Shown here piece by piece: positions 32,617 through 59,678 of a stretch of DNA of 64,000 nucleotides (position 1 is the stretch's first letter; each line of letters begins with the position of its first letter). Source of the stretch: Myxococcales bacterium (lineage in GTDB: Bacteria > Myxococcota_A > UBA9160 > UBA4427); NCBI GenBank assembly GCA_022563535.1, contig JADFNE010000003.1, positions 1 to 64,000 of the forward strand, read 5' to 3'. Below the pieces are notes generated by a model that searched no databases, was not told where the DNA came from, and saw only the letters and a list, made by a program, of their open reading frames with translations. The translations under genes and the position numbers were made by a program.

Positions 32617-33234
32617 ATGGAGATGCTTCTCATTCGACACGGATTGCCGATCCATACCGTCAACCCCGACGGCAAGCCCGCGGATCCCCCGCTCTCGGAG
32701 GCCGGTCACGAACAGGCGCGTCTGGTTGCGGAGTGGCTGCGAGAAGAACCCATCCAGCGCATCTATTCGAGCCCGCTGCGTCGCGCTCGCGAGACCGCCT
32801 TCCCGTTGGCCCAACAGCTGGGACTCGAAATCGAAATCGAAGCGCGGATCCGTGAATTCGACGCCGAGGCCAGCGAGTACATCCCGTTGGAAGAACTCAA
32901 GCGAACCGATCCCGAGCGCTGGAGGGAATTCATTGCCGGTGGATACACGTCAGGGCTCGACTTTGATGCATTTGCTGCAGAGGTCGTTGCCGGACTGCAG
33001 CACCTGATCGATCAGAACCCGGGCCGGCGCATCGCAGTCTTTTGCCATGGCGGGGTCATCAACTCCTGGGCCACGTACGTTCTCGGAATTGCGCCAACGC
33101 TCTTTCTGGATGCTGCGTACACCAGCGTCAGCCGCTTTGTGGCCGCGAGCACTGGCCAGCGAAGCATTGCCAGTCTGAACGAAGCGGCACACCTTCGTCC
33201 GATTCAACTTCGCCCAAAATCTCTGGGGCGCTAG
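32617..33234 (+). CDS. Histidine phosphatase family protein (phosphoglycerate mutase-like)
   Basis: 205 residues. Catalytic RHG at residues 7-9 (LLIRHGLP), the SSPLRRARETA segment and a second His in FCHGGVI, the standard branch-1 histidine phosphatase set. Substrate may be a sugar phosphate, phosphoprotein or nucleotide; nothing here decides. Its stop overlaps the end of the convergent selenoprotein gene by four bases (CTAG). Confidence 0.9.
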   Translation: MEMLLIRHGLPIHTVNPDGKPADPPLSEAGHEQARLVAEWLREEPIQRIYSSPLRRARETAFPLAQQLGLEIEIEARIREFDAEASEYIPLEELKRTDPERWREFIAGGYTSGLDFDAFAAEVVAGLQHLIDQNPGRRIAVFCHGGVINSWATYVLGIAPTLFLDAAYTSVSRFVAASTGQRSIASLNEAAHLRPIQLRPKSLGR

Positions 33235-33953
33235 GGGGAAAAGTCGAGCAGCACCGGCGGCGACTCCGTGTCTTGATTCGAGTCGAACAACGCCAATGCG
33301 GCTTCGATGACGGCTCGCTGCTTTGCCGGCTGGTCCGGGGAATCCAGGGGATACCCGTGTCGGAAGGGCACCCACAGCGCGCGCGGGGGTCGGACCTTTT
33401 TGGCAACCTCCTTGAGCAACACGATCGTCACGCTCGAGATTCCCTGTCGTTCGCATTCCGCCGCTACCAGGCTCACGGCCTGGTTGCACATCGGTCAGAC
33501 TGGCACCAGCAGTGCCAGGTCGACGCCGTCCGCAACGAGCATGGACACGGCCTCTGGAGCCGTCTGACGGGTCAATCGAGCCGGCGCCGTGATCGCACCC
33601 ATGAACGAGAGGTGCCGGGCGTTGAGGGACCCAATGCGGCCCGCAGCGCACAACTCCCGCAGGCGGTCCAAGGGAAACGCGAGGTTTGCATCGCGCTCGA
33701 GCCCCTCGTGATCGAAGGAATCACTGCGATGGGTATTGATCAGACTTTTCAGGTCGATGTCATTCGGGATTGTGCGAAAACTCGAATCCCCACCGCGGAT
33801 TCCGTCGTCGAAGGGTGGTTGATCCGGCGTTGCAAAGCCGGCGCTCGAAATCAGTGCCAATCGACTCTCGGAAACGGGCTTGCGAATCGGAACGAATGGA
33901 ATGGGATCGATCTTGCGCCACGGATAAGCGCGCAAAAACATCCTGATACCCAT
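33231..33953 (-). CDS. GrdB/PrdB-family selenoprotein with in-frame UGA (UxxC)
   Basis: 240 residues when the UGA at 33495-33497 is read as selenocysteine. Read as a stop, it gives two fragments of 152 and 86 residues in the same frame. The sequence around it is LLVPV-U-PMCNQAV, the UxxC redox motif of selenoprotein B of glycine/betaine/sarcosine and D-proline reductases. The following residues (VRPPRALWVPFRHGYPL) match the conserved C-terminal block of that family, showing selection on both sides of the codon. A hairpin 11 nt after the UGA fits a bacterial SECIS. No other glycine- or proline-reductase subunits are nearby, so the reductase complex role is not supported and the function is open. 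Start ATG 33953 is tentative. Confidence 0.85.
33467..33483 (-). promoter_or_regulatory. Putative bacterial SECIS hairpin in the PrdB-like gene
   Basis: In the mRNA sense CCAGGC-CGTGA-GCCTGG: a 6-bp stem and 5-nt loop beginning 11 nt after the UGA, so the loop starts at +17. One more A-U pair and, past one mismatch, two further pairs can extend the stem. This placement is typical of bacterial SECIS elements recognised by SelB. Confidence 0.75.
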
Positions 33954-34115
33954 GGAAAATTCTTTGTAATCGCCCGTGGTCCCGTCCTCCGCCTCCTATC
34001 ATGACAAGAAACCGGCAGCACCGCAGCCCGGGCGCTCGCTACGCCAGGCGCGGGAAATGAAATCGGTGGATCGGTCCGGTCCGCGCAACCTCAATGCTCA
34101 AAAGGCTAAACGAAC

Positions 34116-51928: not shown

Positions 51929-52984
51929 ATGATCATTCCGTCCCTCGAGATTCCCAAGGCAGACTTCGAAGCCCAGACCGGCTGGTCGCTCAAGCCAGAG
52001 GGCGCCTGCAAAGGCGATCGCTGTGTACCGCTTCAGGCGATCGATTCCGCTGCGCACACCGTCGACGTGCGGATATTGAGCGAGACCCTGGGCATGCCCA
52101 TCGTGCACGATGAAGCGCACGGTCTCTACGCGGTCGGCCCCGAGTCGGGTGGCCCCCTGTTGACGAGCGCCGCGTGTCCAGAAATTGTTCTGCCCGACCT
52201 CGACGGAAACGATTTTTCAATTTCTTCCCTGCGCGGGCGCAAGGTCGTGATCGTCAGCTGGGCGTCGTGGTGAGGCTGCAAAGCTGACCTGCCCGGGTGG
52301 CAGGCTCTCGCAGAAGAACTCCGGCCCAAAGGCGTGGAGATCGTAACGGTTGCGATGGATACCCAAGGTGCCGCCGTGGCCCGCGAATGGATCGAACTCG
52401 CAAAGCCGAGCCATCCCTCGCTGATCGACTCGGCCCACGTATTGGGCGAAAAACTCGGCTTCGTGAACGTACCCATGTCCGCCTGGGTCGACGAGCGGGG
52501 TATGTTGGTGCGGCTTGGCGATGCTGCGTTTACCCGGGAAAGTCCGATTCGCACGATGAAAATTACCGACGACATCCCCCCGCACTTGCAAGAAGTATTG
52601 CGCGAGGCCCAGAAAATCCAGACCGACCACGAGACCTACCTGGCTGCCTTGCGCGATTGGGCTGAGAAGGGTGTGAACAGCCAGTTTGCCTGGTCCCCGG
52701 CCGAGGTCGTCGAGCGCTCGGGGCCGCGCAATATGGATGCGGCTCGCGCGGCGGCCTGCTTTGAACTCGGCCAGCACTTGTACCGTGGAGGCAATGAGCG
52801 GGATGCGATCCAGCACTGGCGCGAAGCGCATCGCCTGGTTCCCGGCAACTGGACCTACAAGCGTCAGGCCTGGTCGATCGCGGACCCCGCCCAAGGCCCC
52901 ACCGAGGATTATGAGGGCAGTTGGCTCGACGATGTCAAAGCCCAGGGTGGTGGCGAGGCCTACTACCCAACCTTCAAGCCTTGA
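51929..52984 (+). CDS. Thioredoxin-like selenoprotein with in-frame UGA (UxC)
   Basis: 351 residues if the UGA at 52271-52273 is selenocysteine. As a stop it would give a 114-residue fragment and leave a conserved 3' half in the same frame with no proper start. The context is VIVSWASW-U-GCKADLPGW, the position of the redox cysteine in TlpA/redoxin-like proteins (W-A-S-W-C-G-C). The later cis-Pro strand (NVPMSAWVDERGML) and a C-terminal TPR-like helical region are present. The N-terminal ~85 residues contain another Cys pair (GACKGDRCVPL). A SECIS-like hairpin starts 14 nt after the UGA. Likely a thiol-dependent redox enzyme; substrate unknown. Confidence 0.88.
52288..52304 (+). promoter_or_regulatory. 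Putative bacterial SECIS hairpin in the thioredoxin-like gene
   Basis: CCTGCC-CGGGT-GGCAGG forms a 6-bp stem with a 5-nt loop. The stem begins 14 nt after the UGA and the loop at +20, within the usual window. The geometry matches the hairpin in the PrdB-like gene, and both loops begin CG. Confidence 0.75.
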
Positions 52985-54022: not shown

Positions 54023-55201
54023 ATGATCTGGGGGTCAGGAATCTCGCTGCAGTCCGATAGCCAGGCGGCCGTGAGCGAGGCGAGCGAAGCGATTCGACGC
54101 GAACTCGCTTCGCAACCGGCGGATTTGGTGGTGATTTTCGTGTCCGGTTCACACGCCGAACGCGCGAGCGAGGTGGCGTGCATGGTTGCGGCCGAGTTCC
54201 CAACTGCGCTGTTGTTTGGTTGTACCGCCGCGAGCGTTATTGGGGCGGGCAGGGAGATGGAAGAAGGTGCTGCGGTAGCCCTGGCGGCGGCACGGCTGCC
54301 GGATGTCTCACTCTCGCCTTTTGCCATCTCGGGTCCAGAACTGCACGCGTTGGGCAGCGACACCGACGCGTGGCGCGCGCGGGTAGGTGTTGAGAACTGC
54401 AACGACCCGGGTCTGCTTCTGCTTGGCGATCCCTATTCCGGAGACGCCGAAGCGATCCTGCGCGGAATCGCGCACAGCTATCCCCAGAGCGTACAAGTCG
54501 GGGGACTCGCAAGCGGCGGCGGTCAGCCTGGAGAAAATCAACTCATCCTGGGCGAAAAGGTCTATCGCGATGGTTTCATTGGCATTGCGATGAGCGGAAA
54601 TGTCGTGCTCGAATCGGTCGTGTCCCAGGGCTGTCGCGCTGTGGGTCCGCCCATGTTCGTTACGGCTTTCCGGGGAAACCAGATTCTCGAACTCGACGGT
54701 CGCCGACCGATCGACGTCCTCGAAGAAATTGCCGCCGAAGGACCCGAAGCCGACATCCCACTGTTCCGGGGCTCGCTGTTCATCGGAATTCAGATGGACC
54801 ACAACAAGGTTACGGTCGAGGCCGGCGATTTTCTGGTGCGAAATCTGCTGGGCGCCGATCCCGTGAACGGTGGGCTTTCGATCGGTGCCGAACTCGTTGA
54901 AAACCAGGTAGTGCAATTTCACCTGCGCGACGGTGAGTCGGCTTCGAATGAACTCGATGAAAGACTCTCGAAGTACGCCAAGGAACGACCTGCGGTCAGC
55001 GGCTCGTTACTGTTTTCGTGTATGGGTCGCGGCCGCGGAATGTACGGCGTCGCCAATCACGACAGCGATGCCCTGCGTCGGCATCTCGGGGAGATCCCGG
55101 TGGCGGGATTTTTCGGTAATGGAGAAATCGGTCCGATTGCGGGGAAACCCTATCTCCACGGCTACACGAGTGCCTTTGGGTTCTTTCGCTCGCGAAATTA
55201 G
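54023..55201 (+). CDS. FIST-domain sensory/signal protein
   Basis: 392 residues, with GAGGAGAAG upstream of ATG 54023. FIST N domain (LLFGCTAASVIGAGREMEEG) followed by a FIST C domain (LLFSCMGRGRGMYG, VAGFFGNGEIGPIAG), a pair thought to bind small ligands such as amino acids. It has no transmitter domain of its own. Its last four bases overlap the convergent formate dehydrogenase gene. Confidence 0.9.
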   Translation: MIWGSGISLQSDSQAAVSEASEAIRRELASQPADLVVIFVSGSHAERASEVACMVAAEFPTALLFGCTAASVIGAGREMEEGAAVALAAARLPDVSLSPFAISGPELHALGSDTDAWRARVGVENCNDPGLLLLGDPYSGDAEAILRGIAHSYPQSVQVGGLASGGGQPGENQLILGEKVYRDGFIGIAMSGNVVLESVVSQGCRAVGPPMFVTAFRGNQILELDGRRPIDVLEEIAAEGPEADIPLFRGSLFIGIQMDHNKVTVEAGDFLVRNLLGADPVNGGLSIGAELVENQVVQFHLRDGESASNELDERLSKYAKERPAVSGSLLFSCMGRGRGMYGVANHDSDALRRHLGEIPVAGFFGNGEIGPIAGKPYLHGYTSAFGFFRSRN

Positions 55202-58035
55202 TCTTCGCTCGCGAGCGCGATCTCGACCGCACAAAATTTGAACTCGGGAATCTTCCCGTCCGGATCGACTTTGTCCGTCGTCAAGATGTTGGCAGCGGCT
55301 TCGCGATAGTGGAAGGGAATGAAGATCGAGCCGGGTTGCGTCGACGTTTCGACACGTGTCTCGAGGCGAATCGCTCCCCGCCTCGAACGCACTTCGACCC
55401 AATCCCCAGGGCCAATTTCCCGCTGCTTCGCGTCGGTCGGATGGATCGATACGAAAGCATCGGGTTCGATGGCGTCCAGGGCCTTCGAGCGGCGGGTCAT
55501 GACGCCGGTGTGCCAGTGTTCCAGCACCCTGCCGGTGACGAGAATCAGGGGATATTCGTGATCGGGCAATTCGTCGGCCCCAGTGTGCTCGGCCGCGACG
55601 AACCGTGCGCGCCCATCCTCGGTGGGGAATCCGTCGCCGAACATCACCACGGTTCCGTCGGAGGTCTCGGGGTTGGGGCAGGGATAGAGCTTGCCCGTCG
55701 CGCCGAGGTTGTGATGGGCGAGACCCTGGTAGTTCTTGGTCAGTGAAACGAACTCGTCGAAAATTTCTGCCGGGCTTTCATAGTCCATTGGGTAGTTCAT
55801 GCGCGTGGAAAGATCGCAGATGATTTGCCAGTCGGTTCGGGCTTCGCCCGGTGGGCTGAGAACGGGGTTGCCGAGCTGAACTCGACGGTCGGTGTTGGTA
55901 AAGCTGCCGGATTTTTCGAGTGCGCTCGACGCGGGCAAGATGACGTCGGCAAACTCTGCGGTCTCGGTGAAGAAGATGTCCTGGACCACGAGGAAGTCGA
56001 GGTTGCCTAGACTTTCCCGGACGTGGTTGGTATTGGGATCACTCAAAAACGGGTTTTCGCCGAGGATGTACATCCCGCGAACGCTTCCACTGTGAGCCGC
56101 TTCGATGATCTCGGTCGTGGTCAAACCGGGCTTGGGGTCGAGTGGGATGTTCCAGGCCGCTTCGAAGTGCGCGCGTACTTCGGGAGAAGATACCGGTTGG
56201 TAATCGGGGTAGCTCATCGGGATGAGTCCAGCGTCCGATGCGCCCTGGACGTTGTTCTGTCCGCGCAGTGGATGCAGGCCGGTGCCGGGGCGTCCGATAT
56301 TGCCGGTCATCAAGCACAGCGAAATGAGGCAGCGGCAGTTGTCGGTGCCGTGCACGTGCTGGCTCATCCCCATGCCCCAAAAGGTGATCGCGGCCCGGGC
56401 GCGGCCGTATTCCCTCGAGACTTCCCGAATGGTTTCCGCGTCAATCCCGCAGATCCCGGCCACGAGCTCCGGGGTATAGGATTCAACCGTCTTGGCGACC
56501 GTGTCGAACTCTCGGGTGTGCTGTTCGATGTAGTCGCGATCGAGCAGGTCTTCGGCGATTACGACGTGCATCATGGCGTTGAAGAACGCGACATCGCTAC
56601 CCGGCCGAATCTGGCAGAAGCGCCAGGCGTGATCGGCGATCGGAATGTCGAGGGGGTTGACCACGAGTAGCTTGGTCCCCTTGGCCGCGGCGTCCTTGAA
56701 GAAGGTCGCGGCCACGGGATGGTTCGCGGTCGGATTGCAGCCGGCGACGATTGCAAAGTCTGAATTTTCGACATCGCCGAAGGTCGTCGTGACTGCGGCG
56801 GAGCCAATCATCTGGATCAGCGCAGTCACCGAAGACGCGTGACACAGCCGGGTGCAATGGTCGACGTTGTTGGTGCCAAAGGCCGTGCGCACCAGCTTTT
56901 GGAAAAGATACGCTTCCTCGTTGCTGCATTTGGCCGAACCGAAGCCCGCCAAGGCACCACTCCCGTAGTTCTTGCGGATATCGAGCAAACGCTCTGCCGC
57001 GAGATCGAGAGCCTCATCCCAAGTCGCCTCGCGAAATGCGGGCATCACATCGTTCATGTTCACCAGGCCGCCGGGCTTGCGCCGCCGCCGTTTCGAACTC
57101 TGAACCTCGCTCGAAAGTGGCCGCTTTGGATAGTCGATGCGAATTAGCGGAGTGGTAAGCCGATCTGCATGGGACGTGTAGTCGAAGCCATAGCGGCCCT
57201 TTACGCAGAGCCGACCGTGGCTGCCCGGGCTTTCGCGACCCTCGGCAAAGCGGATACGGTTCTTCTGTGGGTTGGCGTGATAACGAATCGCGCAGCCCAC
57301 CCCGCAGTAGGGACAAACGGAATCCACCTTGGCCAGTGCTTCTAGCGGTTTGCGCTTCGTCTTGGTCTCGACTGCAGGTTCTGCGTGCTGTTCGCTGTCC
57401 AGCTTGTCGACAAGGGCTCCGGTGGGACACGCTGCGGCACATTCGCCGCAGCTCACACAACTCGAGGTTCCCATCGGTTGATCGAAGTCAAAGCTGATCC
57501 GGGCCTCATAGCCCTTTCCGGTGCGTCCCATCACGTCGTTGTGTTGCACTTCGTTGCAAGCGCGAATGCAGCGATCACAGAGAATGCAGGCCTGGTGGTC
57601 GACGGCGATGACCGGGGAGGAATCATCCTGCGGTCGCATCGCTCCGTCGGCGGTAGTTCGTTCAGCACCTTGCTCTCGCGCGAGCGCGAACAGGGCGTCA
57701 TCGCCGGTTGAGTCTTCCCGGGCCGAACGTTCGGGTTGTTCGGCGAGCAGCATTCCGGTCAAGCCGCGACGGCAGCGCTCGATCTTTTCGCTGTCGGTAT
57801 GGACGACCATGCCCGCCTGGGCTTCTCGCACACAGGACGCCGTCATCACCCGTTCGCCCTCGACCTGAACGACACACATCCGGCAGACCCCAACGGGTCG
57901 CAGCTTCGGGTCGTGGCAGAGAGTCGGGATGGAGTGTCCCGCTTGTAGCGCGGCGTCCCAGAGCGAGGTTCCCTGGACAACCTCGACGGGTTCACCGTTG
58001 ATCGTCAGTGTGATGTTTTGTTCAGAGGGAGTCAC
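55198..58035 (-). CDS. fdsA: NAD-dependent formate dehydrogenase, molybdenum subunit (FdsA/FdhA-like)
   Basis: 945 residues. An N-terminal NuoG-like 2Fe-2S domain (C40, C51, C54, C68), two 4Fe-4S sites (ACILCDRCIRAC, CVSCGECAAACP), then the molybdopterin part beginning with VCPYCGVGC. The active-site residue is Cys in CTRLCHASSV near residue 400, so this is a Cys enzyme, not a Sec one, in a genome that seems to encode Sec. It starts four bases inside the NuoF-like subunit gene stop (ATGA-type coupling) and works with it to oxidise formate with NAD. mobA is nearby for the cofactor. Confidence 0.92.
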   Translation of the reverse strand: MTPSEQNITLTINGEPVEVVQGTSLWDAALQAGHSIPTLCHDPKLRPVGVCRMCVVQVEGERVMTASCVREAQAGMVVHTDSEKIERCRRGLTGMLLAEQPERSAREDSTGDDALFALAREQGAERTTADGAMRPQDDSSPVIAVDHQACILCDRCIRACNEVQHNDVMGRTGKGYEARISFDFDQPMGTSSCVSCGECAAACPTGALVDKLDSEQHAEPAVETKTKRKPLEALAKVDSVCPYCGVGCAIRYHANPQKNRIRFAEGRESPGSHGRLCVKGRYGFDYTSHADRLTTPLIRIDYPKRPLSSEVQSSKRRRRKPGGLVNMNDVMPAFREATWDEALDLAAERLLDIRKNYGSGALAGFGSAKCSNEEAYLFQKLVRTAFGTNNVDHCTRLCHASSVTALIQMIGSAAVTTTFGDVENSDFAIVAGCNPTANHPVAATFFKDAAAKGTKLLVVNPLDIPIADHAWRFCQIRPGSDVAFFNAMMHVVIAEDLLDRDYIEQHTREFDTVAKTVESYTPELVAGICGIDAETIREVSREYGRARAAITFWGMGMSQHVHGTDNCRCLISLCLMTGNIGRPGTGLHPLRGQNNVQGASDAGLIPMSYPDYQPVSSPEVRAHFEAAWNIPLDPKPGLTTTEIIEAAHSGSVRGMYILGENPFLSDPNTNHVRESLGNLDFLVVQDIFFTETAEFADVILPASSALEKSGSFTNTDRRVQLGNPVLSPPGEARTDWQIICDLSTRMNYPMDYESPAEIFDEFVSLTKNYQGLAHHNLGATGKLYPCPNPETSDGTVVMFGDGFPTEDGRARFVAAEHTGADELPDHEYPLILVTGRVLEHWHTGVMTRRSKALDAIEPDAFVSIHPTDAKQREIGPGDWVEVRSRRGAIRLETRVETSTQPGSIFIPFHYREAAANILTTDKVDPDGKIPEFKFCAVEIALASED

Positions 58036-59603
58036 GATGGTTTGTGCCCCGCGGCCAGCGAGCTGGGAAAGTTCTCCAACACACTTGAAATGGAGTTTAG
58101 AGCGGCTTGTCCGAGTCCGCAGATCGAGGTCTCTTGCAAGATCTCGTGCAGTGCCGGAATGCTGGCCAGCGCCGTTTCATCGCCGATCTGAATCAGCTTC
58201 ACGGCCTTTTCGGTTCCGATCCGGCACGGCACACACTTGCCGCAGGATTCGTTGCGGAAGAAGGCGGTCAAGTTGCCCGCGAGTTCGACGAGATCACGTC
58301 CCTCTCGAATCGCGATGACCGCCCCAGATCCCAGCGCGCTCCCCACCTCTCTGAGCGCCTCAAAGGTCATCGGGATGTCGATGTGCTCTGCGGAGAGAAA
58401 CCCGGTGCTGGCTCCGCCGGGTTGGAAGGCCAGGAGTTCGTCTCCGTCCGCCATGCCACCGGCGAGGTCGACCAACTCGCGCAGGGTCGTTCCGACGTCA
58501 ACCTCGAATACCCCCGGCTGCGCCACGTCACCGCTGATCGAAAAGAACTTGAGGTCGGCACGCCCGGTCTCGATTACATGCGGAACCAACGCGAAGGTTT
58601 CGACGTTGTTGATCAGAGTCGGTTTCCCGTGCAGCCCTTCGACACCGGGGTAGGGGGGCTTGTTGCGCGGTTCACCGCGACGACCTTCGAGCGCTTCGAG
58701 CAGGGCGGTCTCCTCACCCAGGATGTATCCGCCCGGTGAAACGAAGACCTGGATGTCAAAATCGAACCCGCTTCCGAAGATGTTCTCGCCCAAGGCGCCA
58801 AGACGTCGCGCTTCGTCGAGTGCCTGGCGCACCCTGCCGAGTTCGGGTTCGTATTCGTGGCGGATATAGATCCACGCCTCGTGGCTGTCGATTGCAAGGC
58901 CGGCGAGCACCATGCCTTCGATCACCAGGTGGGGCACGTCGTGCAGCAGGACCCGGTCTTTGAACGTCCCGGGCTCGCTCTCGTCCGCATTGCAGATGAC
59001 ATAGCGGGGCGTTGCGGGCTGGTCTGCAACCAACCCCCACTTTCGGCCCGTGGGAAATCCCGCACCGCCCATCCCCCGGAGATCGGACTGGCTGAGGGTT
59101 TCGATGAGTTGGCTCGAAGCATCTGGCGCGGCGAGGGTTCTGCGCAGCAGATCGTAGGGTGGGTTGGCGTCGGTACCGGCATATGGATCGCATCGCCAGG
59201 TCGCAGTCGATGCAGGTTCTGCCTGCGACTCGATGGACTCGTGGGCGAGTGCTTCCAGCGCCTGGGACGCATTCATGGGAACGTCGTCGACGCTGCAGGC
59301 CGGCGCGTTGTCGCAACGACCGAGGCAGGAGACGGCTTCGAATTCCACGTCGCCCCGCGCTGCGCAGCGCGACCGCAGTGATTCGAGGGCATCGGCGCCT
59401 CCTCGCATATAACATGCGAGATCGCGGCAAACGGCGACGCGGTGGGGAGCCGGCTCGCTTCGACGCAGATGGGGATAGAACGAGCAAAGTTCCTCGACCT
59501 TGGCGCGGGGAATCCGACGGGTTTGACAAAACTCTTCCAGCGTGGCTTCCGGAAGGAAGCCGCGTTCTGCCTGAAGCTCGATTAGCTCTTGGAGAAGATT
59601 CAT
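58032..59603 (-). CDS. fdsB: NAD-dependent formate dehydrogenase, FMN/Fe-S subunit (FdsB, NuoE-NuoF fusion)
   Basis: 523 residues from ATG 59603. The N-terminal ~120 residues are a thioredoxin-like 2Fe-2S domain (CRDLACYMRGG, then CLGRCDNAPAC); the rest is NuoF-like with the FMN/NAD loops (GMGGAGFPTGRKWG, ADESEPGTFKDR) and the 4Fe-4S site ESCGKCVPCRIG. It passes electrons from the molybdenum subunit to NAD. A separate fdsG is not adjacent; its function may be covered by the N-terminal domain. No fdsC/fdhD gene was found in the window. Confidence 0.9.
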   Translation of the reverse strand: MNLLQELIELQAERGFLPEATLEEFCQTRRIPRAKVEELCSFYPHLRRSEPAPHRVAVCRDLACYMRGGADALESLRSRCAARGDVEFEAVSCLGRCDNAPACSVDDVPMNASQALEALAHESIESQAEPASTATWRCDPYAGTDANPPYDLLRRTLAAPDASSQLIETLSQSDLRGMGGAGFPTGRKWGLVADQPATPRYVICNADESEPGTFKDRVLLHDVPHLVIEGMVLAGLAIDSHEAWIYIRHEYEPELGRVRQALDEARRLGALGENIFGSGFDFDIQVFVSPGGYILGEETALLEALEGRRGEPRNKPPYPGVEGLHGKPTLINNVETFALVPHVIETGRADLKFFSISGDVAQPGVFEVDVGTTLRELVDLAGGMADGDELLAFQPGGASTGFLSAEHIDIPMTFEALREVGSALGSGAVIAIREGRDLVELAGNLTAFFRNESCGKCVPCRIGTEKAVKLIQIGDETALASIPALHEILQETSICGLGQAALNSISSVLENFPSSLAAGHKPS

Positions 59604-59678
59604 GGAAGTGAGGACTCTATCGTCAGGAAATGAGAATGGATCGGGACCAGACCCTAGCATCAAAGTTCAGGGGATACG

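Follow-up and report, generated by a model that had tools for sequence, protein, structure and literature searches.

A UGA-containing gene of a Myxococcales bacterium is predicted to encode a selenoprotein that belongs to a known family, WAxxUGC (NF041054)

The stretch of Myxococcales DNA analysed here, 64,000 nucleotides from the start of contig JADFNE010000003.1 (assembly GCA_022563535.1) and referred to below as the window, carries on its forward strand, at 51929-52984, a complete gene of 351 residues that would encode a selenoprotein of the NCBIfam family NF041054 (WAxxUGC_long). The reading frame extends from an ATG at 51929 to a TGA stop at 52982-52984, and its sole internal stop is a TGA at 52271-52273 (residue 115), after which it continues for 236 sense codons. 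This TGA takes the N-terminal position of a U-G-C motif, in the context KVVIVSWASW-U-GCKADLPGWQ, and the motif ends in Cys117 (52277-52279), which is invariant in the family alignment. The first-pass annotation of this DNA had placed a UGA at the N-terminal redox position of SWASW-*-GCKADLP with an open frame beyond it, and both the motif and the frame were found as written. Gene callers that do not support selenocysteine (Sec) would cut the gene to 114 residues.

The encoded protein begins with an alpha/beta domain (51929-52168, forward strand) that holds C27 and C32 (codons 52007-52009 and 52022-52024) as a C-x4-C pair on a beta hairpin, with strands at residues 25-28 and 31-33 in an AlphaFold2 model. 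The model, built on 60 family sequences, has a pLDDT of 93.7 and a pTM of 0.90, and it puts residue 115 directly before a long helix (116-134). No variation was seen among the 60 aligned members at C27, C32, residue 115, C117, D167 or H170. The central part (52172-52540, forward strand, about residues 82-204) is a thioredoxin-fold domain of the AhpC-TSA/Redoxin, ResA-like type, with matches to Pfam PF08534 (Redoxin, 1.5e-13) and PF00578 (AhpC-TSA, 5.3e-13) within residues 82-202. The best solved structure in a Foldseek search was ResA (2f9s), with a TM-score of 0.77 over the target and 0.32 over the query, so that the central domain alone is covered; these matches agree with the UxC thioredoxin-like fold that had been proposed earlier. 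The remainder (52580-52981, forward strand, about residues 218-351) is modelled as an all-helical extension, weakly TPR-like around residues 274-307, and the Pfam TPR_2 profile reaches 22.8 bits in this part, under its cut-off of 27.

Read through the TGA, the protein scores 555.2 bits in an NCBIfam profile search with NF041054, 'ResA-like WAxxUGC motif-containing protein', an equivalog model with a cut-off of 300, and residues 1-350 align with positions 1-353 of a profile of 354, which amounts to the full length. The motif that characterizes the family is present as WASW-TGA-GC, with Sec or Cys in the UGA column of relatives, and the ResA model NF002854 gives 50.8 bits, below its cut-off of 170. 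Selenoproteins with a UGC motif have been known since 2008, when the Global Ocean Sampling survey of Zhang and Gladyshev listed a 'Prx-like (UGC-containing)' class in PF00578 (PMC2398784); a review of 2022 lists the class again (PMC9312934), and one of 2026 (PMC13188914) names a 'UGC-containing TlpA disulfide reductase family protein'. The window protein likewise has a UGC motif within a PF00578 domain, the feature by which the 2008 class is defined. The UGC-containing selenoproteins of the literature, MDE0950781.1 and MBL6689828.1 among them, are likely the same family as NF041054, the comparison being one of motif and domain only, and among the accessible papers our literature search found none that prints 'NF041054' or 'WAxxUGC'. 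The first-pass annotation had raised the possibility of a new selenoprotein family, an idea favoured by the fact that no solved structure among the matches listed covers the whole architecture (best query-normalised TM 0.38) and that the function of the family is not established. However, the equivalog score over the whole length, together with the place of the UGC-containing class in the 2008 survey and in both reviews, makes a new family highly improbable. The N-terminal cysteine pair and the C-terminal helical extension had been correctly recognized, but the pair is not unusual, as its invariance shows, and the extension is not the mark of a new family, since it is part of the NF041054 profile. 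Judged by its sequence, the window protein is very probably a genuine selenoprotein, and it is an ordinary member of a curated, already named family.

To see which residue other members of the family have at the UGA position, relatives were drawn from two sources, 379 genomes of the phylum and the GTDB contig collection. Of 101 distinct family members, 85 have TGA as the codon for residue 115 and 16 have TGC or TGT; no other codon occurs, leaving Sec or Cys as the only residues in this column of the alignment. Sec forms are found in Myxococcota, Chloroflexota, Thermomicrobiota, Binatota and Actinomycetota, among others, and the Cys forms include those of Frankia, Pseudomonadota and Verrucomicrobiota. 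The best tree needs six changes between Sec and Cys, four of them forced by well-supported branches. The closest relative of the window gene, a gene from the same genus (L055), is 77% identical to it, and third-position differences between the two dominate on both sides of the TGA. Upstream dN is 0.13 with dS saturated, and downstream dN is 0.18 and dS 1.92; these values and the excess of third-position differences indicate that the sequence evolves as protein-coding both before and after the TGA.

The machinery for Sec incorporation is present in the genome from which the window comes (147 contigs, 97.9% complete). Family searches found selA (540 bits), selB (283 bits, in a frame of 684 aa), selD (336 bits) and selC, the gene for tRNA-Sec (73 bits, anticodon tca, that is UCA), all above their cut-offs, so that each of the four genes whose presence had been proposed as a check was recovered. 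One alternative is that the TGA is a real stop, in which case the locus would hold a pseudogene or two adjacent genes, one of 114 aa and one of about 216 aa starting from a GTG at 52334. It is true that the frame is cut here under table 11 and that the downstream half has a GTG of its own, but such a split would fall within the catalytic motif, purifying selection persists past the TGA, and the Cys relatives read straight through a position at which 85 family members from several phyla have the same TGA at the same codon. The presence of Sec machinery also speaks against a real stop, to which we would give a negligible chance.

Fourteen nucleotides past the TGA begins a hairpin (52288-52304, forward strand), present just as it had been described, with a 6-bp stem (C-CTGCC at 52288-52293 paired with GGCAG-G at 52299-52304) and a 5-nt loop (CGGGT in the DNA, 52294-52298), the distance from UGA to loop being 20 nt. 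The bSECIS model, as given in the 2026 review, calls for a loop of 3-9 nt, a stem of 4-16 bp, a G at loop position 1 or 2, a spacing of 16-37 nt and an MFE of -7.5 kcal/mol or lower (PMC13188914); the window hairpin, with its CGGGU loop and an MFE of -10.4 kcal/mol, lies within all of these limits. A 50-nt segment folded alone was no better than its own shuffles (z 0.22); the case for the hairpin comes from comparison between genes. Scored as intact when all six base pairs and a G within the first two loop positions are present, the hairpin is intact in 83 of the 85 Sec genes versus 2 of the 16 Cys genes (Fisher p about 3e-13, with relatedness ignored); a sign test that controls for relatedness had only four usable contrasts on well-supported branches, three in the expected direction and one neutral (p 0.25), and is thus underpowered. 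Elsewhere in these Sec genes, a hairpin of this kind in matching codon phase turns up at 0.23% of positions, compared with 83 of 85 at the UGA. Counting the T of the TGA as 0, the pair 17-33 has changed from C-G to U-A in all six rows with an A at 33, a compensatory change seen in three or more distinct lineages; the pair 18-32 is U-A in three rows. When the 3' strand is shifted by 1 to 3 bases, pairing falls from 99.6% to 25-71%. This comparative evidence shows a hairpin that behaves as a bacterial SECIS element would for the SelB/tRNA-Sec system of the genome.

The stem spans the codons of L-P-x-W-Q. All 85 Sec genes use CTG or TTG for its Leu, two codons that account for 45% of Leu codons in the remainder of these genes. 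In Cys genes LRLWS, GPIWA, LNLWQ and similar sequences stand in place of LP[V/G]WQ, which suggests that it is the RNA, rather than the protein, that maintains the motif. The comparison of Sec and Cys genes is in this sense a natural experiment: with Cys in place, hairpin and LP[V/G]WQ decay together, and part of the apparent conservation of the protein therefore looks like RNA constraint. An error in sequencing or assembly could in principle have changed a Cys codon into TGA, a single base away from the TGC or TGT that Cys relatives have in this column. Such an error is very unlikely because independent assemblies from several phyla, L055 among them, have TGA at this site too, and the hairpin is intact here but mostly missing from Cys genes; we give it no better a chance than a real stop. 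A pseudogene or split gene, a sequencing error and a new family were each considered and rejected, and none of the refuting conditions set out in the first-pass annotation (a lack of Sec genes, an unrelated residue in homologues, a TGA that resequencing would remove) is thought to hold for this gene on the present evidence. Our preferred reading is that the UGA at 52271-52273 specifies Sec in a selenoprotein of the WAxxUGC (NF041054) family, which we regard as very probable; the first-pass annotation had also proposed Sec here, and the TGA/Cys column, the Sec machinery and the SECIS-like hairpin all support it.

The window protein has no N-terminal hydrophobic segment, and for that reason it is probably cytosolic and soluble. 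Its activity is most likely that of a general thiol-disulfide reductase or peroxidase. The selenolate of Sec115 could be the attacking nucleophile on a disulfide, a peroxide or another oxidised substrate, and Cys117 would resolve the intermediate by forming a Sec-Cys bond that spans a single residue. The invariant C27/C32 pair could pass electrons to or from this bond, and the helical C-terminal part would offer a possible docking surface. A four-thiol relay of this sort, with any assignment of its substrate, is a tentative proposal that we think somewhat doubtful. Slightly less probable still is the complete scheme, in which a cytosolic redox relay with four centres (running from the C27/C32 disulfide to the Sec115-Cys117 bond and including a helical domain for docking) would carry out a reaction not assigned to any selenoenzyme, and LPxWQ would be set by the SECIS hairpin in the RNA rather than by protein function.

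Across lineages, no gene family was common to the neighbourhoods save for widespread SDR and P450 genes and synteny among close kin, and no pathway could therefore be inferred. Within the genus, synteny with L055 covers the divergent dienelactone hydrolase gene and part of the putative formate dehydrogenase region. This region lies at 55198-59663 on the reverse strand of the window, where two large ORFs resemble, by eye and from their translation only, subunits of NAD-dependent formate dehydrogenase; the frame of the alpha subunit has no internal TGA, and it would therefore be the Cys and not the Sec form.

Other loci related to Sec were noted in the window and in the rest of the genome, which appears to make several selenoproteins. 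A second UGA gene of the window (33234-33995, reverse strand, TGA at 33497-33495) is probably the one that had been counted first in the earlier annotation; it resembles PrdB/GrdB reductases, with a UPMC (UxxC) motif, a score of 114 bits with NCBIfam PrdB (under the cut-off of 300) and of 34 bits with Pfam GRDB (over 22). A PrdB class with UxxC is among those listed in the 2008 survey (PMC2398784). On contig C49 (18249-19118, minus strand) there is a paralogue of the window protein with an in-frame TGA (L003), which forms with its relatives (L033-L047) a separate, well-supported clade on the tree. This clade retains the UGC motif and the two N-terminal cysteines, and most of its members have TGA and an intact hairpin; the five members scanned with NF041054 gave mostly 262-280 bits, a little below the cut-off of 300, with one at 304, and the clade is a divergent sub-family that may escape automatic annotation. 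The selD gene (L022, contig C15:56143-57069) has one in-frame TGA, and SelD may itself be a selenoprotein. The selB gene (L005, contig C31) directly follows serS on the same strand, and its long frame overlaps the end of that of serS. SerRS charges tRNA-Sec, and the pairing of selB with serS may be functional.

Among known systems, the window protein shares with ResA, TlpA, StoA and CcmG the central thioredoxin fold, the WASW motif and the cis-Pro. Unlike them, it has U-x-C, one residue shorter, instead of C-x-x-C, it is without the N-terminal hydrophobic anchor, and it has extra domains at both the N- and C-termini. With the published UGC-containing Prx-like/TlpA selenoproteins, it has in common the UGC motif and the AhpC-TSA domain PF00578; the accessible descriptions of that class make no mention that we found of N- and C-terminal extensions. 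The closest correspondence is with NF041054, which the window protein matches over its full length, in the WAxxUGC motif and the Sec position, and in the N-terminal Cys pair and the C-terminal extension, with nothing of note to set the two apart.
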